Shown here: positions 6,284 through 63,596 of the stretch, piece by piece
Position numbering within the stretch: the stretch's first letter is position 1
Layout: each line of letters starts with the position of its first letter
Assembly: GCF_015356755.1 (NCBI RefSeq)
Contig: NZ_JADFCO010000062.1
Coordinates: 62,001-126,000, forward strand
Source: Nonlabens antarcticus
GTDB lineage: Bacteria; Bacteroidota; Bacteroidia; Flavobacteriales; Flavobacteriaceae
Direction: 5' to 3'
DNA: 64,000 bases
Made by a program: the position numbers and the translations under genes
Notes under the pieces: model-generated
What the model was told of the DNA's origin: nothing
Database searches by the model: none
The model's input: the letters and a program-made list of their open reading frames with translations, nothing else

Positions 6284-6301
6284 CCGCTTTCGCGAAAGCG
6301 G
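6284..6301. repeat. Palindrome CGCTTTCGCGAAAGCG, intergenic copy
   Basis: A perfect 18-bp palindrome (the 16-bp unit flanked by C and G) lies between the convergent helicase and peptidase genes. No T-run follows it and a true terminator lies 70 bp further on, so it is not itself a terminator. Confidence 0.9.
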
Positions 6302-6370
6302 AACATTTATGTCGGAATCAATCCTATTTTGAAAACAGGAGCCTAGATAAGTCTTAATCACTGAAAACAA

Positions 6371-6400
6371 AAAACGCACCCTTTTGGGTGCGTTTTTTTT
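6371..6400. terminator. Bidirectional terminator
   Basis: The stem AAAACGCACCC/GGGTGCGTTTT has A and T runs on its two sides, so it can stop transcription of both convergent genes (helicase on plus, peptidase on minus). Confidence 0.88.
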
Positions 6401-6420
6401 AAATCCAATTTCTAATTTAC

Positions 6421-11172: not shown

Positions 11173-12843
11173 ATGACTACAGCAATTCTTCATGCCCAGC
11201 AAATTATTCTTCTTTTTAAGAAAAGAGGCGTTAAGGATATTATTATTTCGCCAGGCTCTCGCAATGCACCATTAACCATTGGTTTTACGTCAGATCCATA
11301 TTTTAATTGTTACAGCATAGTAGATGAACGTTGCGCTGGACATTTTGCCATGGGAATTGCGCAACAATTGCAAAAGCCTGCTGCATTATTATGCACCAGT
11401 GGAAGTGCATTGTTAAATTATTACCCAGCGGTAACAGAGGCTTTTTATAGTGAGATCCCGCTAATTATTTTGAGCGCAGACCGGCCGCCACATAAGATTG
11501 ATATAGGGGACGGTCAGACCATTAGGCAACAGCATGTATATGCAAACCATATTTTATTTGATGCACAACTGCAGATGATAGCAAATACTTCTCAAAAAGA
11601 GTATCTGGTAACTAATGAACGGGCGATTAACAAAGCGATCAATACGGCCATTTCTAAACACGGTCCGGTACACTTGAATATTCCTTTTGAAGAGCCACTC
11701 TATAATAAAGTGGATCACTCGCTTTTGGAAGTCAGGGTGATGGATGTTTTAAAAGATGAAACTACGATCATCCCTCAAGAATTTTTTAATCAGTGGAATG
11801 CAGCTTCAAGAAAGCTCGTTATTCTTTCCACATTGAATCCGCCGGTTTTTGAAAAAGAAGATCTAGACCAGTTGACTTCAGATCCTAGTGTTCTAGTTAT
11901 GAGTGAGGTGAGTTCTAATGTAGTTCATGATAAAATAGTATGGGGAATCGACACTTTAATTGCGCCCATTGAGTTTGATGATGAGCAAATCGCTGCCTTG
12001 CAACCCGATTTAGTTGTTACCATAGGTGGTATGATTGTCTCTAAAAAGATCAAACAATATTTACGCAGATTTGAAACCAAAACACATTATCACATAGGCA
12101 AACGTCGGGCTTACGATACGTTTTTTAAATTAACAGCCCATATAAAAATGCCACCCACAAAATGGTTGAGTCACCTTTCTAATGACTTTGTTTCCAGTGA
12201 TTATCAGGAGCACTGGTTAGCTCATTTTCAAAATTATCTAGAAAAACGACCTGCTTATTTCGAACAGATTCCATGGAGTGACATGAGGGTCTTTCAAAGG
12301 GTATTTGATCAATTGCCTGACAATATTTTGTTACAGTTGGGAAATAGCAGCACGATCAGATACGCACAGTTGTTCCAAATGAATCCTACACATCGCGTGT
12401 ACTCAAACCGCGGTACCAGCGGTATTGATGGTTGCACCAGCACAGCTATAGGGGCTGCGGTGGGTAGCAATCAACAGACGATTCTTATAACGGGTGACAT
12501 TAGCTTTTTCTACGACTCCAACGGATTGTGGAATAATTATATACCTAGTAACTTCAAGATAATCCTAGTTAATAATAGTGGTGGCGGTATATTTAGAATT
12601 CTTCCTGGTGAAAAGGATGAAGACTATTTTGCTACTTATTTTGAAACAAAGCACGAGCTCAACGCCAGCGATTTGTGTCACATGCACAAAATAGAATATC
12701 AAAATATTGATAATGAGTCCGCTTTCGCGAAAGCGTGGGAAACATTCATCAACAATAACAATAAACCACAATTGCTAGAGATTTTCACACCACGGGAAAT
12801 CAACGATCAGATATTGCTGGACTACTTCAAATACTTGAAATAA
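11173..12843 (+). CDS. menD: SEPHCHC synthase (MenD)
   Basis: This 556-residue thiamine-diphosphate enzyme joins isochorismate and 2-oxoglutarate in menaquinone synthesis. The N-terminal domain carries IISPGSRNAPL, DERCAGHFAMG with the ThDP-activating Glu region, and TSGSALLNYYPAVTEA. The C-terminal ThDP/Mg site is GDISFFYDSNGL...NNSGGGIF. Length and order match the family. It has its own promoter element although it lies 72 bp after menF. A perfect palindrome copy at 12720-12735 encodes Ser-AFAKA in a surface helix near residue 518. Confidence 0.96.
   Translation: MTTAILHAQQIILLFKKRGVKDIIISPGSRNAPLTIGFTSDPYFNCYSIVDERCAGHFAMGIAQQLQKPAALLCTSGSALLNYYPAVTEAFYSEIPLIILSADRPPHKIDIGDGQTIRQQHVYANHILFDAQLQMIANTSQKEYLVTNERAINKAINTAISKHGPVHLNIPFEEPLYNKVDHSLLEVRVMDVLKDETTIIPQEFFNQWNAASRKLVILSTLNPPVFEKEDLDQLTSDPSVLVMSEVSSNVVHDKIVWGIDTLIAPIEFDDEQIAALQPDLVVTIGGMIVSKKIKQYLRRFETKTHYHIGKRRAYDTFFKLTAHIKMPPTKWLSHLSNDFVSSDYQEHWLAHFQNYLEKRPAYFEQIPWSDMRVFQRVFDQLPDNILLQLGNSSTIRYAQLFQMNPTHRVYSNRGTSGIDGCTSTAIGAAVGSNQQTILITGDISFFYDSNGLWNNYIPSNFKIILVNNSGGGIFRILPGEKDEDYFATYFETKHELNASDLCHMHKIEYQNIDNESAFAKAWETFINNNNKPQLLEIFTPREINDQILLDYFKYLK
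12720..12735. repeat. Palindrome CGCTTTCGCGAAAGCG within menD
   Basis: Perfect 16-bp copy, read in frame as AFAKA near the C-terminus of MenD. The surrounding helix and strand keep their expected length, so it replaced rather than interrupted sequence. Confidence 0.9.
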
Positions 12844-16308: not shown

Positions 16309-18057
16309 TTACTGCACTTCAAAAATTATAGGCAGTCCGTATATTACTCCTACTTCTTTACCTCGTTGCATTCCAGGTTTCATTTTAGGTAACATATTAA
16401 TTACACGGGCAGCTTCTGTCTGTAATTCAGGTGCTTTAGCTCTGGATTGAACACCAGTAATTAAACCATTCTTGTCAATCTTAAATTGAACAGCTATAGT
16501 TTGTTTACCCGTTAAACTTAAGTCGTTAGCCAGTCCCGTATTGAAATTTTTATTTACGAACCTGGTTATGTTTTCCTGCATACATTTCTTTTTCTCAGCA
16601 TTATTTCCTGTGCAACCTGGATAAGTAGGAACCTCTTCAATTATGGCAAATGGAACATCACCATTTTGTATTATTAGGTTTGTATCATTGTTGCTTGGAG
16701 CACTTAAGTTTTCTTCGATTGTTTCCGTTTGCACTATTTCTTCATATCCATTATTTTCACCTTGGTTCTCGTATTTCGCTTTTTGCTCTGCAATAAAAGT
16801 TAGATACTCTTCTTTAGACATTCTTGCTTGATCAATAGGTCCAGTTCCAGAGAAACTAGGTGTTCCTTTGGGAGTTTCATGAATGGTTAAAATGTAATTA
16901 TTATTTTCTGTATCACGAACCACGGTATTTCCATTTCTACTAATTTTTTGACTTATGGCTCGGTATTCCGCATAAGCAGGATCTGTCAAGAATTTTTGCA
17001 TGGATTTGTAAAGATCTTTCTTATCATTCTCAAAATTTAATGGCATTTCTTTAGAAATGTTCTCGAGCTTAGATCTTTCTTTGTCAGTTACTCCTTTATA
17101 GAAATCCTTTTGACCATACACATGATCTTGTAATGTGGGTAAATCAGTTAATTCTATTGTCTTTGCAGTAATTTCTTCATCCGGTTCCTGTTCCGTAGTA
17201 CAAGCCGTATAAGTCAAACTTGCAAAAAGTACGGGTAACATCCAGAGCAGTTTGCGCACTGGGAATCGGGAGATTTGGTTTTTTTGTGTCATGGCTATTC
17301 GGGTTTTAATGGTTTTATATTTGAAAAATGGGTTTGAAAATGAGAAGTCAGGACAGTCCAGAACTTGCTTTAAAAGGTTCTCGTAATAGGATTTTTTACC
17401 GTGTACAGCAATGGTTTTCTCGTCTGCGATATGCTCGTGAATCATTTTGAGCTCTTTTTGGGCCAGGTAAGAAATAGGGTGGAACCAGAAAACAATGCGC
17501 AATGCTTCATAGAATAAAAGATCCCAGCTGTGGCGTTCTATTACGTGAGTTTTTTCGTGTAATAATATCTGATCATATTCTGCTTTCGCGAAAGCGTCGT
17601 TGATATAAATATGGTTTAAAAATGAAAATGCGGTAGGCAACTTATGTACCGTCGTTATATAGAAACCATCTATATATCTGGTCTGGCCTTCCTCTTTCCA
17701 TTGATAAATACGCGCGAGTTTGTACAGGAATAGGAGTAGGGCAGCGGCAGTTCCTATACCATAAAGTGTCCACAAACTGGTTGTCAGATCAAATTGTGAT
17801 GGCTGGACGGTTGTAAAGGCAGCATTATTAAGACTCATCATTACCTCTGGAGCAGCGGCGGTATCCTGCATCACAATGGCATCCTGAATGATAAAATTAT
17901 CAACTGGGATCACCAGCAACGGCAATAAAAATGAAACAAAAGGTATTGCAAGCAGATATATGCGATGGGTTTGAAAGCCTTGAGTTCCTTTAAAGAAAAA
18001 GTAGTATAACAAGTAGAAAACGAGCGCCAGTACACAGCTATGTAGTAAGTGTATCAT
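16309..18057 (-). CDS. BlaR1-type M56 metallopeptidase with C-terminal TonB domain
   Basis: This 582-residue protein has an N-terminal M56 domain with membrane helices at about 1-25, 32-52 and 90-112, the zinc-protease motif HEKTH near residue 168, and a second helix group (FWFHPISYLAQKELKMIHEH). A membrane segment follows near residue 270 (LLWMLPVLFASLTYTAC), then a periplasmic linker of about 170 residues and a TonB C-terminal domain (residues 490-582, ending GVIYGLPIIFEVQ). It probably senses an envelope signal and cleaves the BlaI repressor; the TonB end may contact outer-membrane receptors. It overlaps blaI by four bases. A palindrome copy at 17582-17595 encodes AFAKA on the minus strand. 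Confidence 0.88.
   Translation of the reverse strand: MIHLLHSCVLALVFYLLYYFFFKGTQGFQTHRIYLLAIPFVSFLLPLLVIPVDNFIIQDAIVMQDTAAAPEVMMSLNNAAFTTVQPSQFDLTTSLWTLYGIGTAAALLLFLYKLARIYQWKEEGQTRYIDGFYITTVHKLPTAFSFLNHIYINDAFAKAEYDQILLHEKTHVIERHSWDLLFYEALRIVFWFHPISYLAQKELKMIHEHIADEKTIAVHGKKSYYENLLKQVLDCPDFSFSNPFFKYKTIKTRIAMTQKNQISRFPVRKLLWMLPVLFASLTYTACTTEQEPDEEITAKTIELTDLPTLQDHVYGQKDFYKGVTDKERSKLENISKEMPLNFENDKKDLYKSMQKFLTDPAYAEYRAISQKISRNGNTVVRDTENNNYILTIHETPKGTPSFSGTGPIDQARMSKEEYLTFIAEQKAKYENQGENNGYEEIVQTETIEENLSAPSNNDTNLIIQNGDVPFAIIEEVPTYPGCTGNNAEKKKCMQENITRFVNKNFNTGLANDLSLTGKQTIAVQFKIDKNGLITGVQSRAKAPELQTEAARVINMLPKMKPGMQRGKEVGVIYGLPIIFEVQ
17582..17595. repeat. Palindrome core within the blaR1-like gene
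   Basis: Perfect 14-bp core GCTTTCGCGAAAGC, read on the minus strand as Asp-AFAKA in the M56 domain close to the HExxH motif. Confidence 0.9.
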
Positions 18058-50929: not shown

Positions 50930-50997
50930 ACAAATTACCACCTGTTGTAGGATGGGGAACTTTAAAAAATAAATAACAACAATTAAAATTTAAAATT

Positions 50998-51585
50998 ATG
51001 ATTACAATGAAAAAAACAATCGGAACAATAGCACTAGCTACAACGCTAATTTTCAACGTGTCCTGTAAAGACGTAAATAAGGAGGAGTCAATGACAGAAA
51101 GCAGCGATATGCAACAAGAAGCCATGAATGATGGTGGAGATATGGCGATGAATGATAACCAAACGGCAAATGCAAAAATCGTTTTGAATGATTATTTCAA
51201 TTTGAAAGATGCCTTAGTAGGGGATGACAATGCCAAAGCCAAAGAGCTGGGAGCTACATTGATGAATTCCTTAAAGTCATTTGATGCCTCAAGCTATTCT
51301 GATAGCCAGCAAACAGAATTGAAAGACATCATGGTGGATGCGGTCGAGCATGCGGAGCATATATCAGAAAGCCCGATAGAGCACCAGCGCGAGCATTTCA
51401 AAATATTGAGTAAGGATGTTACTGACATGGTTGCCATTACAGGAACAGACATGAAGCTGTACGAGCAGTTTTGTCCTATGTATGATGGAGGTAGTGCATG
51501 GTTGAGTATGAACGAAGAGGTTCGCAATCCTTATTACGGTAGCTCTATGTTGAAATGTGGTAAAGTGCAGAGAGAGATCAACTAA
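50998..51585 (+). CDS. DUF3347 lipoprotein
   Basis: This 195-residue protein starts with a lipoprotein signal (KKTIGTIALATTLIFNVSC); the ATG three codons in (51007) may be the true start. After a Met/Asp-rich linker, a DUF3347 domain spans about 60-190, with its conserved C-terminal YEQFCPMYDGGSAWLS and EVRNPYYGSSMLKCG. The same domain ends the CusB-like protein at 58388. It probably binds copper in the periplasm through the Cys and Met pairs; that is inference from context and the paired Cys. Confidence 0.82.
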   Translation: MITMKKTIGTIALATTLIFNVSCKDVNKEESMTESSDMQQEAMNDGGDMAMNDNQTANAKIVLNDYFNLKDALVGDDNAKAKELGATLMNSLKSFDASSYSDSQQTELKDIMVDAVEHAEHISESPIEHQREHFKILSKDVTDMVAITGTDMKLYEQFCPMYDGGSAWLSMNEEVRNPYYGSSMLKCGKVQREIN

Positions 51586-51635
51586 TTATCAGAGATTAGA
51601 AAATAATGAATCGAGTGCATCCTTAAATTTCTAAA

Positions 51636-52088
51636 ATGAAAATATTTAAAATAATAGCATGGGTTGCGCTTGGTTCATTTATAGTGATTCAGTTTTTTCC
51701 AGTAGATTATAACAGTAGTGAAACCGTACCAAAAACAGATTTCATGCTGGTTAACAAAGTACCTGCAACGATAGAAAAAACGCTGCAGGTTTCTTGTTAC
51801 GATTGCCACAGTAATAACACAGAATATCCATGGTACAATAAAGTACAGCCAGTGGCATGGTACTTAGAAGATCACGTCAAACAAGGGAAGTCTGAACTTA
51901 ACTTTAATGAATGGGACAGCTATTCCGATCGACGTAAAAACAGTAAATTAAGATCAATGATCAAGCAGATCGAAAGTGGTGAAATGCCCATGGAGAGTTA
52001 CACGCTTATTCATAGAGATGCCATTATGGATTCATTGAAACAAAATACGGTTATCAATTTCCTAAAAGAATTGAAATCGAAAAATTAA
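51636..52088 (+). CDS. Haem-binding domain protein with CxxCH
   Basis: This 150-residue protein has one N-terminal membrane anchor (FKIIAWVALGSFIVIQFF) and a periplasmic haem-binding domain with CYDCHSNNTEYPWYN near residue 60 and a downstream SGEMPMESY that may give the distal Met ligand. The family is frequent beside DUF3347 and metal-export genes in Bacteroidota. The haem is covalently attached by the CxxCH motif; redox partner is unknown. Confidence 0.82.
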   Translation: MKIFKIIAWVALGSFIVIQFFPVDYNSSETVPKTDFMLVNKVPATIEKTLQVSCYDCHSNNTEYPWYNKVQPVAWYLEDHVKQGKSELNFNEWDSYSDRRKNSKLRSMIKQIESGEMPMESYTLIHRDAIMDSLKQNTVINFLKELKSKN

Positions 52089-52165
52089 GTCCTGATTAAA
52101 GAAAGGGAATTTTTATTGGTTGGTTTATTGAACCCTTTCTCTTTTTTAGGCGAAATAATTACGTT

Positions 52166-52375
52166 ATGATACAAACATATAATCTAAAAGGAATGACTTG
52201 CGGTGGATGTAAAGCATCTGTAGAAAAATATTTGGATCAAGTAGATAACATCATCAATGTCGAAGCAAATGTTCAGACGGCTGAAGTTGAAGTGACCATG
52301 ATTAGTCACATTGATACAGAAATTTTAAAAAGAGCTTTGCCTGATAAGTTTACTCTTTCTGAAAAAGTGTTGTAA
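52166..52375 (+). CDS. CopZ-like HMA copper chaperone
   Basis: This 69-residue protein is one HMA domain with GMTCGGCKASVEKYL (Cu-binding CxxC). It shares a family-specific SHIDTEILKRAL tail with the duplicated HMA domains of CopA (SHIPIETFQDAL). It likely carries Cu(I) in the cytoplasm to CopA or the Csp protein. Confidence 0.88.
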   Translation: MIQTYNLKGMTCGGCKASVEKYLDQVDNIINVEANVQTAEVEVTMISHIDTEILKRALPDKFTLSEKVL

Positions 52376-52410
52376 AAAATATTAGTAAGAAATTAAAAAA
52401 AACAGATCAA

Positions 52411-53244
52411 ATGAAAAACATATTAGTACCAACAGACTTTTCAAGAAACTGCGAAACAGCAGCAAAACTGGCTATTGATATGGCAAAACTTTTTAATTCT
52501 GAAATCCATTTTTTGCATCTATTGAATACTCCTGTAGATTGGGTGAAACTAGATAAAATAGACGAACGTAACTACCCTGAAACACTTGCAAAAATAGGTT
52601 CTGCCAAAAATAAATTAAGAGATTTAGATATAGAAGCAGGACATAATGGTGTAAAGTCTAGAACGTTTTTAGAGTTTGTTTTAGATGATGAAGCAATTGT
52701 GGCACATTCTAAAAACTTTGATCATGATTTTATTATAACGGGAAGCAAAGGCATACAAAAAGGTTTTTTGAAACAGGTGCTAGGAAGTAATGCGCAAAAA
52801 ATCATCCGTAATGCACGAGTGCCTATTTTGGTGATAAAAGAAGAAACGGTAAGGTTTCCTTTCGAAAATATCGCATTTGTATCTGATTTCAAGGAAGATA
52901 TTTCTACTGCATTCGAAGTGGTTGAAAGGATAGCCCAAAAATGCAATGCTAAAATCCACTTGTTGAATATCAACACTACATCAGATTCTAATAGTATTGA
53001 GAATGGATTGCAACCCATCAAGGATTTTTTAAAGCACTTCCCAAAATTAGAAAACTATGCCATGCACGTTTATAATGAACCTAACGTCTTACGTGGCATT
53101 GAAAAGTTTCAAGATTCTAATGATGTCGACTTAATAGTAATGTACACCCATAGCAGAAAAGGATTATCGAGTATGTTTTCAAATAGCATTGCCGAAAGTG
53201 TGACGAATCATTCAAATAAACCCGTGATGACAATTCACCTTTAA
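52411..53244 (+). CDS. Tandem universal stress protein
   Basis: This 277-residue protein has two Usp domains. The first starts KNILVPTDFSRNCETAAKLAI and contains an ATP-site-like IITGSKGIQKGFLKQVLGSNAQ; the second (about 145-277) ends VDLIVMYTHSRKGLSSMFSNSIAE. Usp proteins act in stress survival, often by binding ATP. It begins a trio with the small protein and permease that follow, with only 1-2 bp gaps, inside the copper island. Confidence 0.88.
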   Translation: MKNILVPTDFSRNCETAAKLAIDMAKLFNSEIHFLHLLNTPVDWVKLDKIDERNYPETLAKIGSAKNKLRDLDIEAGHNGVKSRTFLEFVLDDEAIVAHSKNFDHDFIITGSKGIQKGFLKQVLGSNAQKIIRNARVPILVIKEETVRFPFENIAFVSDFKEDISTAFEVVERIAQKCNAKIHLLNINTTSDSNSIENGLQPIKDFLKHFPKLENYAMHVYNEPNVLRGIEKFQDSNDVDLIVMYTHSRKGLSSMFSNSIAESVTNHSNKPVMTIHL

Positions 53245-53245
53245 T

Positions 53246-53539
53246 ATGGAAAATTACGATACACTTTCGACCACAATGGCGCAATTACAAGAGCAGGGTT
53301 ATACCTGTGATTTTAATCTATGTTCCGGACATATAGAATGCAATTCACTCAAACTGAAATTACATCCAGAAGATTTTGATGTTGACCAGACGTTTCGGTT
53401 TGAAGGGATGAGCAGTACGGACGATAATAGTATTCTATATGCTATATCTTCAAAAAAAGGAATTAAAGGTTTATTGGTAGATGCCTATGGTGTATATGCA
53501 GAAAACATCACTGAAACAATGAGACAAAAATTAAGATAA
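53246..53539 (+). CDS. Small conserved protein (often named phosphoribosylpyrophosphate synthetase)
   Basis: This 97-residue soluble protein matches a Bacteroidota family with the patterns CDFNLCSGHIEC, LKLHPEDFDVD, FRFEGMSSTDDNSILYAI and KGLLVDAYGVYAEN. Database entries for it are often labelled phosphoribosylpyrophosphate synthetase, but it is far too short for that and shows no PRPP loop. True function is unknown. It sits 1 bp after the stress protein and 2 bp before the permease. Confidence 0.65.
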   Translation: MENYDTLSTTMAQLQEQGYTCDFNLCSGHIECNSLKLKLHPEDFDVDQTFRFEGMSSTDDNSILYAISSKKGIKGLLVDAYGVYAENITETMRQKLR

Positions 53540-53541
53540 AA

Positions 53542-54897
53542 ATGAAGCCGTTAAACATAAGTAACCAAAAGCTTTCTTTATTGGGCTCTGTATCTTTAGG
53601 TACAGGCGTGATGATAGGTGCTGGTATTTTTGTTTTAATGGGACAGATAGCCGAGTTGGTCGGAGATTTATTTCCTATCGTCTTTGTGGCTGGAGCTATT
53701 GTTATAGGATTTAGTTCCTATTCGTATATTAAATTTTCAAACGCTTACCCATCTTCTGGTGGTGTGGCTAAATTTTTGACCAAAGCCTATAAGCCAGGCA
53801 CTCTTGCGGGATCATACTCGTTATTAATGTATGTGTCGATGGTGGTCGCAGAGAGTTTAGTAGCTGGTACTTTTGGCGCTTATGCGTTGCGGTTATTTCC
53901 AGAGGAGTACGCGGGTAATGCATCTTTATTGGGGGTTGTTCTTATTGCAACCGCATATATCATAAATATCTCTGGTAATAAAGTTATCGAAGCAACTGCC
54001 ACCTATACCGCAATTATAAAGGTTGCAGGTATTGCCTTATTAGCTGTTGCTGGTTTGGTGATTTCGGGATTGCCTACTGTAACTGGCAATTATGTGGCTT
54101 CTAACAGCCAGTCTTTTCCTGAAGGTTTTGGATTTATTGCGGCATTAGCGTTATCAGTTCTTGCATTTAAGGGATTTACAACCATCACAAATCAAGGAGG
54201 TGATATTAAAAACCCTCATAAAAAGGTGGGACGTTCTATTATAATTTCAATCGCCGTTTGTACCATTATTTATGTTGCCTTAGCGTTATCTGTCGCCGGT
54301 GGATTGAGTATAGAAGAAATTATTGTAGCTAAGGATTATGCATTGGCCGCTGCTGCAAAACCCATATTTGGGGAATGGGGTTCTACATTGACCATTTTAC
54401 TTGCTATCGTTGCAACGGTTTCTGGTGTTATAGCCAGCGTTTATTCTGCCTCAAGAATGTTAGGCATGTTGAGTAGTATGAAACAAGTGCCAAACTTGAA
54501 TGCCATCAAAAAACTTAAAAATCCTGCACTAATCTTTACCGTTTCTCTAGCCATAGTGTTAACTATATTGTTTGATTTAACGAGGATAGCTTCCATAGGT
54601 GCTATTTTCTATTTGATAATGGATATTGCTATCCACTGGGGACTTTTCAGACATTTAAAAAAAGAAGTAAAATTTAATCCGGTAATTCCAATAATAGCCA
54701 TAGTAATGGATGTTGTCATTTTATCAGCATTCATTTATTTAAAATATGTGAACGACCCATTTGTGCTTATAGTTGCTGCAATTGGAATCGCGCTCATTTT
54801 TCTCACACAATTTATATTTATGAAATCGCATACTGATAACGATGGGAATATGAATATGGGAATGGAAAGCAGCGGAGAAGAAACAATGAAAATGTAA
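53542..54897 (+). CDS. APC-superfamily permease
   Basis: This 451-residue membrane protein has about 12 predicted helices and the APC N-terminal signature GTGVMIGAGIFVLMGQ, then AYPSSGGVAKFLTKAY near residue 70 and FKGFTTITNQGGDIKNP near residue 210. The C-terminal tail has Met/Gly-rich MNMGMES residues. It should import an amino acid or amine; no substrate is readable. Its place with a stress protein inside a copper operon is unusual. Confidence 0.87.
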   Translation: MKPLNISNQKLSLLGSVSLGTGVMIGAGIFVLMGQIAELVGDLFPIVFVAGAIVIGFSSYSYIKFSNAYPSSGGVAKFLTKAYKPGTLAGSYSLLMYVSMVVAESLVAGTFGAYALRLFPEEYAGNASLLGVVLIATAYIINISGNKVIEATATYTAIIKVAGIALLAVAGLVISGLPTVTGNYVASNSQSFPEGFGFIAALALSVLAFKGFTTITNQGGDIKNPHKKVGRSIIISIAVCTIIYVALALSVAGGLSIEEIIVAKDYALAAAAKPIFGEWGSTLTILLAIVATVSGVIASVYSASRMLGMLSSMKQVPNLNAIKKLKNPALIFTVSLAIVLTILFDLTRIASIGAIFYLIMDIAIHWGLFRHLKKEVKFNPVIPIIAIVMDVVILSAFIYLKYVNDPFVLIVAAIGIALIFLTQFIFMKSHTDNDGNMNMGMESSGEETMKM

Positions 54898-54908
54898 TAA
54901 TAAATAAT

Positions 54909-57644
54909 ATGAAACACACCTATCACATACAAGGTATGACCTGCAACGGTTGCCGCAGTCACGTAGAGCAGACACTTTCTAAAGTGAATGGTGTTAAAAG
55001 CGCTACTGTTGATTTAGAAAAAGTAGAAGCAATCATTGAAATGAATTCTCACATTCCCATCGAGACATTTCAAGATGCATTATCAAAGGATGGCGGGAGC
55101 TACAGCATACATATGCCAAAAGAAAACGGAACAATGAAGCACACTTATCACATACACGGAATGACCTGCAATGGTTGCCGCAGTAACGTGGAGCAGACAC
55201 TTTCTAAAGTGGATGGTGTTTCTAATGCAACCGTCAATCTGGAAAAAGCCGAAGCTACCATTGAAATGGAATCACATATTCCTATCGAAACTTTTCAAAA
55301 AGCACTTCAAGATGATGGAGGTAGTTATTCCATTCATAAACTCGGTGATAAACCGGCTGACATTGATAAACCAAATGAGGTTCCCGCCTCTGCGGGAACT
55401 TCAGGAACGGGAACCTTTTACTGCCCCATGCATTGCGAGGGCGACAAGACGTATGGCAAACCAGGCGATTGTCCCGTTTGTGGAATGGATCTGGTAGAAG
55501 AAGTCAATCTATCTGCAACCACCACAGAACAATGGACTTGCCCCATGCATCCAGAAATCATCAAGGATGAATCCGGAGCCTGTCCCATTTGCGGGATGGA
55601 TCTAGTTCCCATGAAAGCAGACAGTTCTGCCGAGGAAAAGACGTATAAGAAACTACTCAAGAAATTCTGGGTTGCGGTCGCCTTTACACTTCCCATTTTT
55701 CTAATGGCTATGAGTGAGATGATTCCCAGCAATCCACTATATGATTTAATGGAACAGAAGTGGTGGAACTGGATTCAGTTTGGCTTATCCATTCCGGTGG
55801 TGTTCTATGCGACCTGGATGTTTTTTGAACGCGCTTATCGCAGTATTATCACCTGGAAGCTCAATATGTTCACACTTATAGGCATCGGTGCTGGTGTGGC
55901 GTGGTTATTTAGTGTTTTCGGAATGCTGTTTCCAGACTTTTTTCCAGACCAATTCAAGACTGAATCTGGTGCTGTACACGTCTATTTTGAAGCGGCAACA
56001 GTGATTCTCACGTTGGTGTTGATGGGACAGGTTTTGGAAGCTCGTGCGCACAGTAAAACAAATTCTGCCGTCAAGGAATTGCTCAAACTGGCTCCTAATA
56101 AAGCTACCCGAGTAGTAGATGGAAACGAGGAAGAAGTTTCTATTGATAAAATTGAAAAAGGAGATATCCTGAGGGTTAAACCTGGCGATAAAATTCCTGT
56201 GGATGGTATTATTACAGAGGGAAACACCACGGTTGACGAATCGATGATCTCTGGAGAACCCATTCCTATTGATAAAGCTGAGAATGATCAAGTAAGCAGC
56301 GGTACCATTAATGGTAATCAATCATTCTTGATGAAAGCCGAAAAAGTAGGCAGCGATACCTTGCTATCCCAAATAGTGCAAATGGTCAACGACGCGAGCC
56401 GCAGCCGCGCGCCCATCCAGAAGTTGGCCGATACGGTTTCCGGGTATTTTGTACCCGTTGTCGTTGCGATTTCCATAATTACGTTTATGGTTTGGGCAAT
56501 CTGGGGACCAGAACCCGCTTACGTTTATGCCCTGGTTAATGCCATTGCGGTATTGATTATTGCCTGTCCTTGTGCGTTGGGACTTGCGACTCCCATGTCC
56601 ATTATGGTAGGCGTGGGTAAAGGTGCTCAAAACGGTGTGCTCATTAAAAATGCAGAAGCCCTTGAAAAGCTCGATAAAGTAGACACGCTCATCGTTGATA
56701 AAACAGGAACGATTACAGAAGGTAAACCAACCGTTGAAAAAATAGGCGTTTTTGGAGACCGCTTTCGCGAAAGCGAAATACTTAAAATGATTGCTTCCTT
56801 GAACAGCTCTAGTGAACACCCGTTGGCAGAGGCTACCGTGAAATACGGAAAAGAACAAAAAGTCGAAATCCTAAAAACCGAAAACTTTAGCGCAGTTACT
56901 GGAAAAGGAGTAGAAGGAACTGTTAATGGTAAAAAGCTCGATCTGGGAAATGCAAAAATGATGGAGTACGCAAAAGCCAGCATCTCCTCAGAAATGGAAG
57001 CAGAAGCGCAATCCTTTCAGAAGAAGGGAAAAACCGTCTCCTATCTAGCCGTAGACGGTGAAGTATCAGGTTATGTGGTCATAGGCGATAAAATTAAAGA
57101 AACCAGTGCGCAGGCCATCAAAGAACTGCAAGACAAAGGCATTGCCGTCATTATGTTGACCGGCGATAACCACGATACCGCGCAATCTGTAGCCAGCGAC
57201 CTAAACCTAGCCGATTTTAAAGCGGGAATGCTGCCAGAAGACAAACTCAAAGAAGTAACTAGATTACAAGAAGAAGGAAAAATAGTGGCAATGGCTGGAG
57301 ACGGTATCAACGATGCACCGGCACTGGCCAAAAGTGATGTAGGAATCGCCATGGGAACAGGAACTGATGTTGCCATAGAAAGTGCTATGATCACTTTGGT
57401 TAAAGGGGATTTACACGGCATTGTTAAAGCGAAAAATTTGAGCCATGCCGTAATGAGAAATATCAAGCAAAACCTGTTTTTTGCTTTGATCTATAACGTT
57501 CTAGGCGTTCCAATTGCCGCTGGATTGCTCTTCCCGTTTTTCGGAATATTATTATCACCCATGATTGCAGCACTAGCGATGAGCTTCAGCTCGGTTTCCG
57601 TGATTGCAAATGCATTGAGGCTCAAATCAAAATCAATTAACTAA
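54909..57644 (+). CDS. copA: Copper-exporting P1B-type ATPase CopA
   Basis: This 911-residue pump exports Cu(I). Two nearly identical HMA domains open it (GMTCNGCRSHVEQTL and GMTCNGCRSNVEQTL), then two heavy-metal-binding CPMH...CPxCGMDL modules at about 172-198 and 208-236. The P-type core follows with the ion-site CPC (IACPCALGLATP near residue 555), phosphorylation site DKTGT near 597, TGDN near 751 and GDGINDAPAL near 798. CPC marks Cu/Ag specificity. The HMA duplication is recent at DNA level. A palindrome at 56760-56775 encodes RFRES near the SEHPLA motif. Confidence 0.95.
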   Translation: MKHTYHIQGMTCNGCRSHVEQTLSKVNGVKSATVDLEKVEAIIEMNSHIPIETFQDALSKDGGSYSIHMPKENGTMKHTYHIHGMTCNGCRSNVEQTLSKVDGVSNATVNLEKAEATIEMESHIPIETFQKALQDDGGSYSIHKLGDKPADIDKPNEVPASAGTSGTGTFYCPMHCEGDKTYGKPGDCPVCGMDLVEEVNLSATTTEQWTCPMHPEIIKDESGACPICGMDLVPMKADSSAEEKTYKKLLKKFWVAVAFTLPIFLMAMSEMIPSNPLYDLMEQKWWNWIQFGLSIPVVFYATWMFFERAYRSIITWKLNMFTLIGIGAGVAWLFSVFGMLFPDFFPDQFKTESGAVHVYFEAATVILTLVLMGQVLEARAHSKTNSAVKELLKLAPNKATRVVDGNEEEVSIDKIEKGDILRVKPGDKIPVDGIITEGNTTVDESMISGEPIPIDKAENDQVSSGTINGNQSFLMKAEKVGSDTLLSQIVQMVNDASRSRAPIQKLADTVSGYFVPVVVAISIITFMVWAIWGPEPAYVYALVNAIAVLIIACPCALGLATPMSIMVGVGKGAQNGVLIKNAEALEKLDKVDTLIVDKTGTITEGKPTVEKIGVFGDRFRESEILKMIASLNSSSEHPLAEATVKYGKEQKVEILKTENFSAVTGKGVEGTVNGKKLDLGNAKMMEYAKASISSEMEAEAQSFQKKGKTVSYLAVDGEVSGYVVIGDKIKETSAQAIKELQDKGIAVIMLTGDNHDTAQSVASDLNLADFKAGMLPEDKLKEVTRLQEEGKIVAMAGDGINDAPALAKSDVGIAMGTGTDVAIESAMITLVKGDLHGIVKAKNLSHAVMRNIKQNLFFALIYNVLGVPIAAGLLFPFFGILLSPMIAALAMSFSSVSVIANALRLKSKSIN
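56760..56775. repeat. Palindrome CGCTTTCGCGAAAGCG within copA
   Basis: Perfect copy read as RFRES in the nucleotide-binding domain, ahead of SEHPLA. Confidence 0.9.
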
Positions 57645-57661
57645 TTTCTAAATCAAACAAC

Positions 57662-58153
57662 ATGCAAAACGACATCAAAATGAATCATGATTCCATGAAA
57701 AAAAACCAATACACAAAATTTGTGGCCATGCTCGCCGCCTCGTTTGTGGCTATGTACATCACGATGTACTTGAACACGTATTCCATCGATCATGTATATT
57801 TTAGCCTAACCCGTTTTTATATGAGCTGTCTTGGTATTTCTGCCATGGCGATTATTATGTATGTGGCGATGCGCGGGATGTACAAGAATAAAAAGAAGAA
57901 TTTCGCCATTATTTTTGTAAGCATCAGTTTGTTTATTGGAGCACTGAGTTTAGTGCGTGATCAAAAAACTACCGTGGGCGATGTTTTGTGGATGAAAGCG
58001 ATGATTCCGCATCACTCCATTGCTATTTTGACGAGTGAACGTGCTGATATAAAGGATCCAGAAGTAAGACAATTAGCTGATGATATTATCAAGGCCCAAC
58101 GTAAGGAAATAGGTGAGATGAAAGCTATGATAAAAAGGTTAGAAGGGAAATAA
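57662..58153 (+). CDS. DUF305 membrane protein
   Basis: This 163-residue protein has three predicted membrane helices (about 20-40, 55-70 and 80-97) followed by a DUF305-type helical tail with the conserved AMIPHHSIAI motif and a C-terminal amphipathic helix (RKEIGEMKAMIKRLEGK). DUF305 proteins occur beside copper resistance genes and the MxPHHxxAI residues are thought to bind metal, but function is not established. It lies 17 bp after copA. Confidence 0.8.
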   Translation: MQNDIKMNHDSMKKNQYTKFVAMLAASFVAMYITMYLNTYSIDHVYFSLTRFYMSCLGISAMAIIMYVAMRGMYKNKKKNFAIIFVSISLFIGALSLVRDQKTTVGDVLWMKAMIPHHSIAILTSERADIKDPEVRQLADDIIKAQRKEIGEMKAMIKRLEGK

Positions 58154-58171
58154 TACTTATGATTTTTTTTT

Positions 58172-58254
58172 GGGCGCTCGAGCGGGCTATTCGCTACAAT
58201 CTTTTTAATGCCTATCGGCATTTAAAAAGGATTTCCACTTCTATCCCTAGCGCA
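58172..58254. repeat. Structured intergenic element
   Basis: A hairpin CTTTTTAATGCC/GGCATTTAAAAAG (58201-58229) is enclosed by GGGCGCT at 58172-58178 and CTAGCGC at 58248-58254. From memory, similar elements with a CGGGCT..TTCGCTACAATCTTTTT start and an AAGGATTTCCACTTCTATCC end recur in many Bacteroidota intergenic regions. I cannot tell whether it is an RNA, a terminator or a mobile repeat. Confidence 0.45.
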
Positions 58255-58260
58255 AAACAA

Positions 58261-58315
58261 AAAACCTTGTAGGAACAAACCTAATAGGTTTTCAATACCT
58301 GTTAGGTTTCGTAAG
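58261..58315. repeat. Hairpin pair after the structured element
   Basis: AAACCTAATAGGT (58277-58289) and ACCTGTTAGGTTT (58296-58308) are inverted repeats with one mismatch, enclosed by AACCTT/AAGGT. It may end the upstream transcript or be part of the element before it. Confidence 0.45.
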
Positions 58316-58387
58316 GTAATAAAGAGGGTTTTTAAAAAACTGTTGGATTAAAATCACAGGTAAGGGTTTCAATAAGAAATAGAAATT

Positions 58388-60127
58388 ATGAAAAAGAACA
58401 TTTTATATATAGGCATTGCGGTAATCGTTGGGTTACTTGCTGGCTGGCTCATCTTTGGGAACGGCAATGATGAATCGATGAACGTAAAGAACGTTTCTGA
58501 TATGTCAGACAATCACGGTCATGATGGTGAAACGGCGGCTCAAATGTGGACTTGCTCGATGCATCCACAAATAATGCAACCAGAATCTGGCGATTGTCCT
58601 ATTTGTGGAATGGATCTTATTCCTGCGGCATCCAGCGCTGAAGGTCTTGCCATGAACGAGATTAAAATGACCGAGAATGCCATCGCACTGGCTAATATCC
58701 AAACGACCATTGTAGGTAGTGGGACAGCATCTGATGAGGATGGTATGATCTCCTTATCAGGGAAAATTGCTACTAACGAAGAAAACAACTCGGTTCAGGC
58801 AAGTTATTTTGATGGACGTATTGAACGATTGAATGTAAATTATGAAGGTCAAAAAGTTAATCGCGGGCAGCTGCTGGCTACCATTTATGCGCCTACTCTC
58901 GTCGCTGCACAGCAGGAATTGCTAACAACAGCTTCGCTAAAAGAATCACAACCGGCACTTTATAAGGCAGTTCGCAATAAACTAAAAAACTGGAAGCTTT
59001 CTGACGGGCAGATCAATGCTATTGAATCCTCAGGAAAAGTGCGGGATAATTTCCCCATTTATGCCACCGTATCTGGAACGGTTGCCGAGGTAGTGGCACG
59101 CGAAGGCGATTACGTCAAACAAGGGCAACCCATCCTTAAGGTCAGTAACTTGAATTCGGTTTGGGCAGAATTTGATGGATATGAGAATCAGATCTCAAAC
59201 CTGAAGGAAGGTCAAAACATTAAAGTCGTGACGAATGCCTATCCCAATAAAGAATTTGACGCAACGATATCCTTTATAAACCCTATGCTGGATAATGCGA
59301 CTCGCACCGTGACGGTAAGAGCAACGCTTAAAAACACCGATAACCTTTTCAAGCCAGGAATGTTTGTTACCGGTAAACTTAAAGGCGCAACAAAAATGAC
59401 TGGAGAAACACTGACCGTACCCGCAACTGCCGTCATGTGGACCGGAGAACGATCCCTAGTTTATATCAAAACAAACCCCAACGAGCCTATTTTTGAAATG
59501 CGCGAAGTAACTCTGGGGAACCGGAATGGTGATAATTACTCAATTGCAAATGGTCTTTTAAATGGTGATGAAATCGTTACTAATGGGACTTTTACCGTGG
59601 ATGCGGCGGCTCAACTTCAAGGTAAAAAATCTATGATGAATCAAGGAAAGCCGGATATGACCGAAATGCCTATTTCTCAAATGAAAATGGAGTTTCCAAA
59701 GAGTTTCCAGCTGAATTTTAAAAAGGTACTGAAACCATATTTACAAATGAAAGATGCCTTCGTGAGTAGTGATGCTGGTAAGGTTTCAGCTTTCGCGAAA
59801 GCGACATCGACCTCTTTAAAATCTGTAAGTATAGGTAGCTTAGGAAAAATGGAACAAGCGCATATCAAAAAAAGTATCGAGATGCTTGACGCTATTGCGA
59901 CCAATGATATTCTTGAAAATCAGCGCGCGCACTATGTGATCTTGAATGAAAACATGGTTCCCATTGCAATGAATATCGGGAGTATAGACCCCACGCTTTA
60001 TGTTCAGAAATGCCCTATGGCTAACAATAACAAGGGCGCAGTCTGGTTGAGTACAGAACAAGATATACGCAACCCTTACTATGGCGAACAAATGATGACT
60101 TGCGGGAGTGTGATCGAGGAGATCTAA
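58388..60127 (+). CDS. cusB: CusB-type efflux adaptor with C-terminal DUF3347
   Basis: This 579-residue periplasmic adaptor has an N-terminal anchor (LYIGIAVIVGLLAGWLIF), a heavy-metal-binding WTCSMHP...CPICGMDLIP module at about 54-80, and HlyD-like lipoyl, hairpin and barrel domains (IERLNVNYEGQKVNRGQLL, APTLVAAQQELL, VSNLNSVWAEF, FKPGMFVTGKL). A DUF3347 domain closes the protein from about residue 450 (YLQMKDAFVSS, CPMANNNKGAVWLS, IRNPYYGEQMMTCG). It would join CusA to the outer-membrane factor, though it lies almost 13 kb from cusA. A palindrome at 59789-59802 encodes Ser-AFAKA in the DUF3347 part. Confidence 0.92.
   Translation: MKKNILYIGIAVIVGLLAGWLIFGNGNDESMNVKNVSDMSDNHGHDGETAAQMWTCSMHPQIMQPESGDCPICGMDLIPAASSAEGLAMNEIKMTENAIALANIQTTIVGSGTASDEDGMISLSGKIATNEENNSVQASYFDGRIERLNVNYEGQKVNRGQLLATIYAPTLVAAQQELLTTASLKESQPALYKAVRNKLKNWKLSDGQINAIESSGKVRDNFPIYATVSGTVAEVVAREGDYVKQGQPILKVSNLNSVWAEFDGYENQISNLKEGQNIKVVTNAYPNKEFDATISFINPMLDNATRTVTVRATLKNTDNLFKPGMFVTGKLKGATKMTGETLTVPATAVMWTGERSLVYIKTNPNEPIFEMREVTLGNRNGDNYSIANGLLNGDEIVTNGTFTVDAAAQLQGKKSMMNQGKPDMTEMPISQMKMEFPKSFQLNFKKVLKPYLQMKDAFVSSDAGKVSAFAKATSTSLKSVSIGSLGKMEQAHIKKSIEMLDAIATNDILENQRAHYVILNENMVPIAMNIGSIDPTLYVQKCPMANNNKGAVWLSTEQDIRNPYYGEQMMTCGSVIEEI
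59789..59802. repeat. Palindrome core within cusB
   Basis: Perfect 14-bp core, read as Ser-AFAKA. The homologous position of the lone DUF3347 gene (51007-51585) has a normal helix of the same length without it. Confidence 0.9.
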
Positions 60128-60418
60128 TAGGCAAGAATGGAAGTAACCGTTAAAGTTTTCGCCCTATGTTAATTCAGATAAATTTGATTTCCTAGACGGA
60201 TTAACTTCTGGAAGCTAGGTATTTTAACTCTTATTATCACAATAGAAAAATGAGTGGCACATAGTATTGAGGTGCTCGATTGAAGACTGCATGCTTTTAA
60301 TATAGCTTTATCTCCGCAACCTTAATAGATTGATATCACCATCTCACCTTATGTAAAACCTTTGTTTAGGGCTGTGAAATCTGTCTTCAAATCCTTAAAT
60401 TGCATTCAAACGTTTGCA

Positions 60419-61063
60419 ATGGAAAAAGACCTTCAAGATTCACGCAAATCCTATGACAAGGATGCGCTATTAGAGTCAAATCTTAATAGAAATCCTTTTG
60501 AAACCTTTGGAGAATGGTTCCAGCAAGCAGAAAATGACGATGCGGTGGAAGAACCTAATGCAATGAGTGTTTCTACCATAGGAGGTGATGGATTTCCTAA
60601 AACCAGAATTGTTCTTCTTAAAGAAATCGCAAACGACACGTTCTTATTTTATACGAATTATACTTCTGAAAAGGCTGTCGCTATTGAAGCGCATCCTCAA
60701 ATTTGCATTCATTTTTTCTGGCCTAGTCTAGAGCGACAAGTAATTATCAAGGCAAATGTGAAAAAGGTACCTGCTGAAAAGTCTGCTGCTTACTTCAACA
60801 GTCGTCCCAGAGGTAGTCAATTGGGCGCATGGGCTAGTCATCAGAGTGATGTAATAATTTCTAGAGAAGAGTTAGATGATCAATTAAAAGCAATAGAAAA
60901 ACAATTTGAGGGCAAAGATGTTCCATTACCAGAGTTTTGGGGAGGTTATAGTTGCTCACCAGTGTCTTTTGAGTTTTGGCAAGGCCGTCCTAATCGAATG
61001 CATGATCGTATTTTGTACCTCCAGAATAATAACTCCTGGGAATTTAAAAGATTACAACCTTAA
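60419..61063 (+). CDS. pdxH: Pyridoxamine 5'-phosphate oxidase
   Basis: From the ATG at 60419 this FMN enzyme of 214 residues makes pyridoxal phosphate. It has NAMSVSTIGGDGFPKTRIVLLK, FLFYTNYTSEKAVAI, FFWPSLERQVIIKA, YFNSRPRGSQLGAWAS and the C-terminal SFEFWQGRPNRMHDRI. Length at this start equals the family norm, and a reading from a TTG at 60362 would add 19 unlike residues. The leader carries AACGTTTG as a -7-like element. Its stop overlaps the next start (TAATG). Confidence 0.95.
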   Translation: MEKDLQDSRKSYDKDALLESNLNRNPFETFGEWFQQAENDDAVEEPNAMSVSTIGGDGFPKTRIVLLKEIANDTFLFYTNYTSEKAVAIEAHPQICIHFFWPSLERQVIIKANVKKVPAEKSAAYFNSRPRGSQLGAWASHQSDVIISREELDDQLKAIEKQFEGKDVPLPEFWGGYSCSPVSFEFWQGRPNRMHDRILYLQNNNSWEFKRLQP

Positions 61064-61548
61064 TGAAAAAGCAACTTATCTTAGTACGCCACGGGAAGTC
61101 TAGCTGGGAATTTGATGTTCGCGACCATGATCGACCCCTAATTTTTAAAGGAATTCAAGATGCTCATATCATTGGGCAATCGCTTCAAGAATTTCCTAAG
61201 CATCCCGGTTTAATCTGGTCAAGCACAGCTGCACGAGCGCTACAGACGGCTACCATACTTACCGAATATATAGATTACGATCTCAAGAATTTACAACTTA
61301 AAAGAGAGCTGTATACTTTTGATTCAAGCGAACTCTTAAAAATGGTACATACGATTCCAGATAATATGGAAAGCTGTATGATCGTATCGCATAATCATGG
61401 TTTGACAGAACTCGCTAACCAGCTAGGTGATACACATTTTTCAAACGTTCCTACCACAGGCGTTGTGATTATTGAGTTTGAAGCTTCCAGCTGGAGAAGT
61501 ATTTCTAAAGGGACTACAACCTTTCATCTTTTTCCAAAAAACCTTTAA
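61063..61548 (+). CDS. SixA-like histidine phosphatase
   Basis: This 161-residue protein is a histidine-phosphatase-superfamily member of the SixA type: LILVRHGKSSW carries the phospho-accepting His near residue 9 in the RHG motif, STAARALQTA follows and VSHNHGLTELANQLG carries the second His. Family members dephosphorylate phosphohistidine or small phosphoesters; the substrate here is unknown. Start and stop overlap both neighbours by one base, so the four genes from pdxH to ppx form one tight operon. Confidence 0.87.
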   Translation: MKKQLILVRHGKSSWEFDVRDHDRPLIFKGIQDAHIIGQSLQEFPKHPGLIWSSTAARALQTATILTEYIDYDLKNLQLKRELYTFDSSELLKMVHTIPDNMESCMIVSHNHGLTELANQLGDTHFSNVPTTGVVIIEFEASSWRSISKGTTTFHLFPKNL

Positions 61549-63596
61549 TGATACCACGCTATTTTAATAGAGAGCTATCATGGCTTAAATTCAACGCACG
61601 CGTGCTGCAAGAGGCTAACGACCCTACTGTACCGCTCATCGAGAGGCTTAGGTTTTTAGGGATTTTCTCTAACAATCTTGACGAATTTTTCAAAGTACGT
61701 TATGCTGCTATTCAACGTATTTATCGTGCAGGAAAAAATGCTACTAAATCCCTAGGAGGTATCTCCGCTGCTGACTTGTTGAATGAGATCAACTTGACGG
61801 TAATGGAAGATCAGATGCTTAGTTTTCAAATTCTCAATGACCTTGAAAATGAGCTCGCTAAGGAACACATTATCATTGTTGATGAGAACGAAGTTTTAAA
61901 AGAACATGAGGATTATTTACGTAAATACTTCAATGAAAAAATAAGCCCTGCGTTAGGAGTTATCATGATTGATGGTAAGGCTGCATTCCCACCTTTACAG
62001 GATGGAATGGGGTATCTCGCGGTTCGAATGACTTTCAAAGATGGCGAGGTGCGACATGCTCTGATCGAGAAGCCTAAACATTTGAACAGATTTGTTGTAC
62101 TTCCAGATCTAAAAGACGGTAAGCAATATGTCTTGCTGATAGATGATTTGATACGTCACAGAATGCATTATCTATTCAGCATTTTTGAATATGAAAGCAT
62201 TGAGGCACATATGATAAAAGTAACACTAGATGCCCAGCTTGATATTGACTTAGACCTTAAAAAAAGTCTACTAGAAAAAATCAGAGATAGTGTATATGAT
62301 CGTAAAGATGGGGATCCAGTTCGGTTCGTTTTTGATAGAGAAATCAATAAGGAAACGATTGATTTGATAATGAGTAAACTGGAGATAGATGATACCGACT
62401 CTATCATTCCCAGCGGTAGGTATCACAACAGGCGTGATTATTTAAAGTTCCCCAGTTTAGGTCGTAAAGACTTATTATATGAACCACTCACACCTTTACC
62501 TATTAAAAATCTTGTTATTAAAGGTTCTCTATTGATGCACATTGCAAGGAAGGATATTCTGCAATACGCGCCGTATCATACATTTGCAAATACTACAAAA
62601 TTCTTAAGAGAAGCTGCGCTGGACCCTAATGTTGAGGATATAAAGATTACAATATATAGACTGGCAGAAGTTTCCCAGATTGCAGGATCTCTTATTAATG
62701 CCGCCAAAAACGGAAAGTCGGTTACGGTATCTATTGAGTTACAGGCACGGTTTGATGAACAAGCAAATATCAATTATGCAGAGTTGATGCAGGAGGAGGG
62801 GATTCAGATGATTTTCGGTGTTCCAGGCTTAAAAGTGCACTGCAAAGCTTGTCTCATAACTCGCCGACAGGAAGGTAAATTGAAACGGTATGGTTTTATC
62901 TCTACTGGGAACTTCAACGAGGCGACTGCAGGAATTTACACAGATTATACTTTATTCACAGCAGATAAGAAGATATTAAAAGAGGTGGAACGTGTTTTTG
63001 AATTTTTTGAAGTCAATTACAAACAGCACAGGTATAAGCATTTACTTGTGAGTCCTACTTTTTTGAGATCTCGTATTGAGCAGATGGTTAGACGTGAAAT
63101 CGCTTTCGCGAAAGCGGGAAAAAAGGCATTGATACGGTTGAAACTTAATTCGTTCTCAGACTATAAAATGATTGATTTATTCTATCAAGCGTCCAATGCA
63201 GGTGTTCAAATTGAGCTAATCATACGTGGCATATGTTGTCTGATTCCAGGTGTTAAGGGAATGAGTGATAACATTAAAGCGATTAGTATTGTCGATCGTT
63301 ATCTAGAGCATCCACGCGTTTATTATTTTCACAATGGCGGTGATACCTCGTTATACATTTCTAGCGCAGATTTTATGCAACGCAACCTAGATAATCGTGT
63401 AGAAATCGCTTGTCCCATCTACGATGAGGATATTAAAAAAGAGATTTTAGAAACGCTGGATATTTGCTGGAATGACAATGTGAAGGCAAGAATAATTGAT
63501 GAGGATCAGTCAAATTCCTACGTAAGGAATGAAATGCCAGAAATCAGGTCGCAATACGCTACCTATGCTTATTATCAACAAAATATAGATGTTTAA
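61548..63596 (+). CDS. ppk1: Polyphosphate kinase 1
   Basis: This 682-residue enzyme makes polyphosphate from ATP reversibly. It begins RYFNRELSWLKFNARVLQEA with the N-terminal helical domain (NNLDEFFKVR), has the head domain (PAFPPLQD region), and then the two PLD-like catalytic domains with KVHCKACLITRR (His near residue 430) and STGNFNEATAGIYTDYTLF. A palindrome at 63101-63116 encodes AFAKA in ARREIAFAKAGKKALIR-like helix. It overlaps both neighbours, so ppk1 and ppx are balanced on one message. Confidence 0.95.
   Translation: MIPRYFNRELSWLKFNARVLQEANDPTVPLIERLRFLGIFSNNLDEFFKVRYAAIQRIYRAGKNATKSLGGISAADLLNEINLTVMEDQMLSFQILNDLENELAKEHIIIVDENEVLKEHEDYLRKYFNEKISPALGVIMIDGKAAFPPLQDGMGYLAVRMTFKDGEVRHALIEKPKHLNRFVVLPDLKDGKQYVLLIDDLIRHRMHYLFSIFEYESIEAHMIKVTLDAQLDIDLDLKKSLLEKIRDSVYDRKDGDPVRFVFDREINKETIDLIMSKLEIDDTDSIIPSGRYHNRRDYLKFPSLGRKDLLYEPLTPLPIKNLVIKGSLLMHIARKDILQYAPYHTFANTTKFLREAALDPNVEDIKITIYRLAEVSQIAGSLINAAKNGKSVTVSIELQARFDEQANINYAELMQEEGIQMIFGVPGLKVHCKACLITRRQEGKLKRYGFISTGNFNEATAGIYTDYTLFTADKKILKEVERVFEFFEVNYKQHRYKHLLVSPTFLRSRIEQMVRREIAFAKAGKKALIRLKLNSFSDYKMIDLFYQASNAGVQIELIIRGICCLIPGVKGMSDNIKAISIVDRYLEHPRVYYFHNGGDTSLYISSADFMQRNLDNRVEIACPIYDEDIKKEILETLDICWNDNVKARIIDEDQSNSYVRNEMPEIRSQYATYAYYQQNIDV
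63101..63116. repeat. Palindrome CGCTTTCGCGAAAGCG within ppk1
   Basis: Perfect copy read as Ile-AFAKA-Gly. Confidence 0.9.

Follow-up and report, generated by a model that had tools for sequence, protein, structure and literature searches.

A long palindrome iterated hundreds of times in the genomes of Nonlabens and two other genera of Flavobacteriaceae, a possible docking site for an intracellular DNA-binding protein

A stretch of 64,000 nucleotides from Nonlabens antarcticus (assembly GCF_015356755.1, contig NZ_JADFCO010000062.1, positions 62,001 to 126,000; the window, below) contains twelve perfect copies of the 14-bp palindrome GCTTTCGCGAAAGC, and raises the question of what could hold so long a word at so many places. 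All twelve had been reported in a preliminary description of this DNA, and all were recovered at exactly the starts given there. They are accompanied by two copies with one mismatch (3880 and 35015) and two with two mismatches (3671 and 33080), which bear out four of the eroded copies reported with them; the fifth, near 10054, has three mismatches and is weak. The 16 copies with no more than two mismatches compare with a mean of 0.12 and a maximum of 1 in 100 dinucleotide shuffles, and the 16-mer that headed the preliminary description is present at full length at nine of the 12 perfect sites. The answer that we favour, at slightly less than an even chance, is that the palindrome is the docking site of a putative intracellular, dimeric DNA-binding protein with a part in chromosome architecture or maintenance.

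The iteration is genome-wide, and neither near chance nor confined to an island. The source genome (G000; 3,270,668 bases in 66 contigs) holds 611 copies of the 14-mer across its 3.27 Mb, against none of the same letters written backwards, which are likewise palindromic, and a 464-kb sample of it contains 88 copies where Markov models of order 1 to 5 predict 0.0009–0.28. A check in related Flavobacteriaceae, proposed at the outset, gave hundreds of copies (288–857 per genome) in all 23 Nonlabens genomes examined, with six copies in one of the 36 other relatives searched and none in the remaining 35. A second carrier genus, that of G250, has 369–905 14-mers in each of 18 genomes, and a third, that of G234, has 408 in the one genome available, which brings the total to 42 of 42 genomes of three genera. 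Among 349 genomes of the family, 94 have a match to the 12-mer, and besides three Nonlabens genomes only G250 (917) and G234 (445) are rich in it, the other 344 having at most 21. Four genomes (G095, G120, G188 and G330) have 13–21 12-mers each, intermediate between carriers and non-carriers, and these could be imports via mobile islands, or remnants. Across the phylum, 22 of 395 genomes have a match, and none has more than six except G000. Neither perfect nor one-mismatch copies occur in 78 loci outside Nonlabens (1.51 Mb) or in 381 kb outside the carrier genera. A search for rival words in other genera covered 18 genomes, G120 and G188 (13–19 copies genome-wide) being included, and revealed no spaced CG-rich palindrome in the 19 stretches sampled, which at 20 kb each give low power. 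The 12-mer and 14-mer appear as strings in no paper of the literature searched, which excludes most subscription papers and all preprints, and within the same limits no literature on the motif was found under flavobacterial overrepresented palindromes or uptake sequences, or under palindromes or repeats of Nonlabens or Dokdonia; this supports the earlier remark that the motif has no published name.

The copies in the window, none of which is assigned a strand, are as follows.

6286–6299, perfect palindrome, intergenic
12721–12734, perfect palindrome, within a thiamine pyrophosphate (TPP)-enzyme gene (11173–12843), frame 0 (A-F-A-K-A)
17582–17595, perfect palindrome, within a gene with M56 peptidase and TonB_C domains (16309–18057, minus strand), frame 0
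19057–19070, perfect palindrome, intergenic
26727–26740, perfect palindrome, within an NAD(P)H-hydrate dehydratase / YjeF_N gene (25722–27272), frame 0
30481–30494, perfect palindrome, intergenic
43175–43188, perfect palindrome, within a 1266-aa open reading frame (41830–45630) adjoining copper genes, frame 1
47188–47201, perfect palindrome, within an outer-membrane efflux gene (46138–47433), frame 0
50783–50796, perfect palindrome, within a DUF326 gene (50609–50929), frame 0
56761–56774, perfect palindrome, within a heavy-metal P-type ATPase gene (54909–57644), frame 1
59789–59802, perfect palindrome, within a CusB/HlyD-type gene (58388–60127), frame 0
63102–63115, perfect palindrome, within the polyphosphate kinase gene (61548–63596), frame 0
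3671–3684, copy with two mismatches, from the sequence scan
3880–3893, copy with one mismatch, from the sequence scan
33080–33093, copy with two mismatches, from the sequence scan
35015–35028, copy with one mismatch, the outer G alone being changed, from the sequence scan

By the positions of the open reading frames (ORFs), nine of the perfect copies are intragenic and three intergenic, the same split as first described. In the larger samples, where ORFs were placed with a crude caller, 63 of 88 sites in G000 and 54 of 90 in G022 lie within ORFs and use all three frames, and the sites are enriched between genes 2.4-fold in G000 (25 of 88 in 11.6% of the DNA) and 4.7-fold in G022 (36 of 90 in 8.5%). 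An amino-acid repeat was considered as the cause and rejected, since the motif is found in all three frames and 25 of the G000 sites lie between genes.

Several patterns emerge from the anatomy of the motif. First, of the 647 12-mers in G000, 611 are part of a full 14-mer, and the palindrome continues outwards with C/G, a variable base, and then T/A, such that the flanks are informative to about 20 bp. Secondly, departures from the word are restricted to a few positions. When the halves are folded together, the one-mismatch copies are distributed over the half positions as 10, 4, 0, 0, 8, 1, 0 (n = 23), and in two further samples as 11, 3, 0, 1, 6, 1, 0 (n = 22) and 2, 0, 0, 0, 1, 1, 0 (n = 4); the outer G, the C beside it and base four of the half-site CTTTCG take most of the changes, with few elsewhere, the outermost base accounting for 10 of 23 and 11 of 22 and inner position 4 for 8 and 6. 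Because mismatches are tolerated at a few fixed positions, the motif looks like a protein recognition site. Thirdly, 176 of the 214 GCGAAAGC half-sites on both strands of the G000 sample are within perfect palindromes, with which an oriented, Chi-like half-site fits poorly. Together, the tolerance profile and the pairing of half-sites look like symmetric contact by a protein.

The sites are also more regularly spaced than random ones, as the preliminary description had proposed checking. The mean distance between sites is approximately 3.6–7.3 kb, with sites both in genes and between them. In G000 the coefficient of variation of 84 gaps is 0.63 compared to 0.96 for random placement, with two gaps below 1 kb where 14.7 are expected; in G022 it is 0.46 compared to 0.87 (70 gaps), with none below 1 kb where 16.1 are expected; and in G250 it is 0.43 compared to 0.93 (18 gaps). 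None of 3000 simulations was as even as observed in any of these three. For G234 a set of 12 gaps gave P = 0.07, and 99 gaps taken from listed positions are significant (0.68 compared to 0.98), as are those of G767 (99 gaps) and G004 (60 gaps). A hard minimum of 1.0 kb between neighbours is insufficient for the G000 spacing (P = 0.017).

Individual sites are strongly conserved between relatives, in agreement with the initial expectation. The 1–160 kb stretch of C66 was aligned over 32–36% of its length to G019, G020 and G022, at 76, 74 and 71% identity respectively, the comparison with G022 covering 80 kb. Sites in aligned blocks are identical in 12 of 13, 12 of 12 and 9 of 10 cases (33 of 35 in total), compared to 3.8, 2.8 and 1.9% of all 14-mers; these counts refer to aligned blocks alone, where the seeding of the alignments may be biased towards conserved words. 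When the sites of the three other genomes are instead looked up in G000, 12 of 18, 12 of 18 and 9 of 14 are identical; of the 17 that are not, 12 differ by one or two mismatches. The clearest single case is the site at 63102 in the polyphosphate kinase gene, part of a syntenic 11-kb region, which is identical in 17 of 19 species including third codon positions; the exceptions are G003, with two mismatches, and G006, with eight. The motif encodes Phe at a position of the Nonlabens kinase (PPK1) that is occupied by Asn in 70 of 78 other loci and by Phe in one, and G006, which is without the motif, has Asn at this position when read by eye. The motif dominates the PPK1 protein sequence at this one site. 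Other sites of the 11-kb region are common to subsets of species, and that at alignment column 13538, present in five species, is an in-place replacement without gaps. We note that at column 8060 (L188–L206; 66700 in window numbering) the palindrome is shifted among Nonlabens species, or a different palindrome, TCCCGATAGCTATCGGGA, takes its place, with the flanks remaining similar between the species.

Between genera the picture differs. Four sites of the other carrier genera could be aligned to Nonlabens DNA and none is shared, a small sample, and none of the Nonlabens sites lay within a block that could be aligned. Since this sample has no common site, the genera may have accumulated their sites separately, once a putative reader had spread or arisen, and with enough force to alter the proteins encoded there.

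The status of acquired DNA is mixed. The window includes a copper-resistance island (41269–60130) encoding efflux parts, a multicopper oxidase and a metal ATPase, with five motif copies in 19.2 kb. Some Nonlabens genomes match it at several places (examples are G019, G015 and a second one in G000), and in six genomes from other genera the stretches with motif clusters align to it at about 67–78% identity to the window; these stretches, 194 kb in all, contain 25 perfect and nine one-mismatch copies, and the place of the site at 47188, as judged from the alignment offset, bears the motif in G259, G131, G122 and G145. At the other extreme is a 53-kb motif-free gap in contig 58 of G000. A 20-kb sample of it (L400, 56001–76000), from an island with a conjugation coupling protein, BREX components (PglX, PglZ and BrxL) and Gabija (GajA and GajB), has no perfect and no one-mismatch copies. 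Its PglX is of the Eco57I type, and another of its genes fuses an ADP-ribosyltransferase domain with an ADP-ribose glycohydrolase domain.

Two isolated phages of Nonlabens, P12024S and P12024L, with a combined length of 71 kb, have no motif copies where about 13 would be expected at host density, and no TCGCGA where about three are expected in each. Neither has an annotated integrase, and we take both to be lytic. Each has an annotated DNA methyltransferase; together with the absence of TCGCGA this may hint at host restriction of that hexamer. AT-rich viral contigs with the motif do exist, one of which has a phage transposase, a baseplate gene and four 12-mers in 27.6 kb. At least 120 viral stretches have a match, and the flanks were viewed in 80 of those 120; many of the 80 are GC-rich single copies, apparently unrelated. 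In GC-rich viral contigs of about 50 kb (L048, L057, L060 and similar ones) the single copy occurs in the context CCACGACGGCTTTCGCGAAAGCCGCGATCG, and is apparently unrelated to the flavobacterial motif.

The nucleoid- or segregation-protein site was one of three mechanisms originally suggested, and together with the uptake signal it still stands, whereas the methylation target is now disfavoured. In the docking-site reading, a putative dimeric, sequence-specific protein would dock at the palindromes genome-wide, recognising approximately T-N-CGCTTTCGCGAAAGCG-N-A on double-stranded DNA, with partial tolerance for changes at two positions, the outermost G of the 14-mer and base four of the half-site CTTTCG. 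It would work intracellularly over the entire chromosome, anchoring its architecture or maintenance, and would require one site every few kilobases and no more. From the sequences we infer that such a protein exists, that it is a dimer, and that it serves chromosome organisation rather than DNA uptake. An intracellular role is preferred because the palindrome is perfect, because its conservation seems to exceed that of neisserial DNA uptake sequences (DUS), and because a conserved enzyme residue is overridden.

A number of observations weigh against this. No reader protein turned up, although no gene-content search was made. Of the half-sites, 38 lie outside perfect palindromes where 6.7 are expected for permuted words, and at most 23 of these are attributable to halves of one-mismatch copies. 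The outer flank preference depends on the species, being TTCGC... in G000 and TTACGC... in G022. The G000 spacing could follow from nothing more than a hard minimum of 1.5 kb (P = 0.23), leaving a true period unsupported. Copy number is independent of genome size in the genus of G250 (903 copies in 5.5 Mb and 905 in 3.3 Mb). Twenty stretches round G022 have 1–7 sites each with no trend or depleted region by eye, the origin and terminus being unmapped, and in this the motif is unlike the regionally patterned sites of Noc, SlmA and MatP. Lastly, even spacing, strong conservation and absence from new DNA are features of DUS as well (PMC2397512 and PMC7811141).

A Noc-like paralogue of ParB, or an altered ParB, was tried as the reader and is disfavoured. 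One ordinary ParB copy is present in 21 of 21 genomes, with extra ParB_N matches in two of nine carriers and three of the 12 others. The recognition helix reads GKSRSA in Nonlabens compared to GK[KN]RST in others, and because GKNRST occurs in the carriers G234 and G250 as it does in non-carriers there is no change common to carriers; nor is there a common paralogue. A search with a parS consensus was uninformative, with no matches in carrier stretches and one at two mismatches in a non-carrier.

The principal rival is a palindromic DNA-uptake signal, in which a surface or periplasmic receptor favours the word during natural transformation, and biased uptake with recombination accumulates and maintains it by molecular drive. 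We consider this unlikely, but it is the alternative that comes next after the docking site. Even spacing, strong conservation, one apparently new island without the motif and lineage-dependent flanks all match DUS, for which drive is expected to give an even distribution (PMC7811141) and absence from new DNA is described (PMC2397512); natural transformation has also been reported in Riemerella, which is described as belonging to the family. However, known uptake sequences are non-palindromic (PMC1939737), and DUS occupy permissive places (PMC2397512), whereas the motif overrides a conserved residue of PPK1. The identity of 33 of 35 sites in pairwise comparisons at 71–76% also looks stronger than what PMC2397512 gives for the DUS of Neisseria, of which 71% are exactly the same across all six genomes while the aligned sequence averages about 85% identity, though the two measures differ.

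Alternatively, the word could be functionless, with biased mutation repair or gene conversion creating and keeping it at no benefit to the cell. Dispersal in all frames and the gapless new site at column 13538 would suit such a drive, but a process blind to distance would not give even spacing, and there is no pool of near misses, 1.9 Mb of loci from outside the carrier genera being devoid of perfect and one-mismatch copies alike; we regard it as improbable.

A highly iterated palindrome (HIP) linked to methylation is in our view very improbable. On this reading, modelled on a proposal for HIP1, an orphan methyltransferase would modify TCGCGA or a longer core, and the modified sites would be used by mismatch repair or by some other reader. 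The core does contain TCGCGA, a possible methyltransferase target; cyanobacterial HIPs track methyltransferases (PMC4390886); and restriction of the hexamer could conceivably account for its absence from the two phages. Three Pfam families were surveyed over 21 genomes, and none is common to the nine carriers, of which six have PF01555, three PF02086 and five PF00145, other classes (Eco57I and HsdM) being unsurveyed; G010, a single contig that is 99% complete and has 563 copies, has none of the three. Methylation is disfavoured because of these two results, and the motif is moreover 14–20 bp rather than 6–10 bp in length. Transcription terminators or other RNA hairpins are hardly credible: the extended palindrome can fold as a hairpin of −9.1 kcal/mol and is enriched between genes, but most sites lie within ORFs and, among 59 intergenic sites, density is similar between convergent (7; 0.52/kb), tandem (36; 0.57/kb) and divergent (16; 0.70/kb) genes, with no excess at convergent ones.

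HIP1 was first reported in 1995, and a 2018 study reportedly dealt with its spacing and conservation. The likeness to HIP1 in behaviour but not in sequence, pointed out initially, holds in that the motif is iterated, dispersed through coding and non-coding DNA, conserved and evenly spaced, and it shares with HIP1 and the alternate HIPs of cyanobacteria the scarcity of near misses. One-base deviations of HIPs are biased to the first and last base; those of the motif lie partly at the outer bases and partly at inner position 4. In being far above chance and dispersed genome-wide it is a HIP in the sense of Elhai 2015, whereas its 14–20 bp, compared to 6–10 bp, place it outside the short words of that definition. 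It also differs in density (one per 3.6–7.3 kb compared to about 1 kb for HIP1; PMC4390886), and in having no methyltransferase of the three families common to carriers, where one specific for the HIP sequence is generally present, with exceptions (Elhai 2015); it is also from another phylum and unrelated in sequence. With the uptake sequences of Neisseria (DUS) and Pasteurellaceae (uptake signal sequences) the motif has in common a copy number in the hundreds, regular spacing, high conservation at orthologous positions, flanks that extend the word and differences between lineages, but it is a perfect palindrome rather than an oriented word, is kept at greater divergence and overrides a conserved residue at one site, and its role in uptake is putative. 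It resembles the sites of Noc, SlmA and MatP in being palindromic, those being protein sites of 12–16 bp, but its copies are about ten times as many as the Noc sites, and no ParB paralogue was found across the carriers. Chi is short, oriented and non-palindromic, with one per about 4.6 kb in E. coli; the density of the motif is similar, but its half-sites are mostly in perfect palindromes.

What HIP1-type palindromes do has been hard to establish, mainly since the effects of methylation, repair and chromosome structure are inseparable in them. The Nonlabens motif combines length, strong conservation and even spacing with the lack of a tie to three common methyltransferase families, and its carriers are marine bacteria, some of them in culture, so that a reader should be retrievable with a simple DNA bait. 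Three genera of Flavobacteriaceae may have a form of chromosome-wide addressing, in which a dimeric reader would recognise a 20-bp palindrome every few kilobases independently of methylation; we hold this as a tentative view, with the chances somewhat against it, and to our knowledge no earlier such addressing system is known in Bacteroidota. If the uptake signal is the true explanation, this would be the first palindromic DNA-uptake signal known to us, and if the docking site is, it would reveal a new chromosome-organising protein in a phylum in which we know of few such factors.

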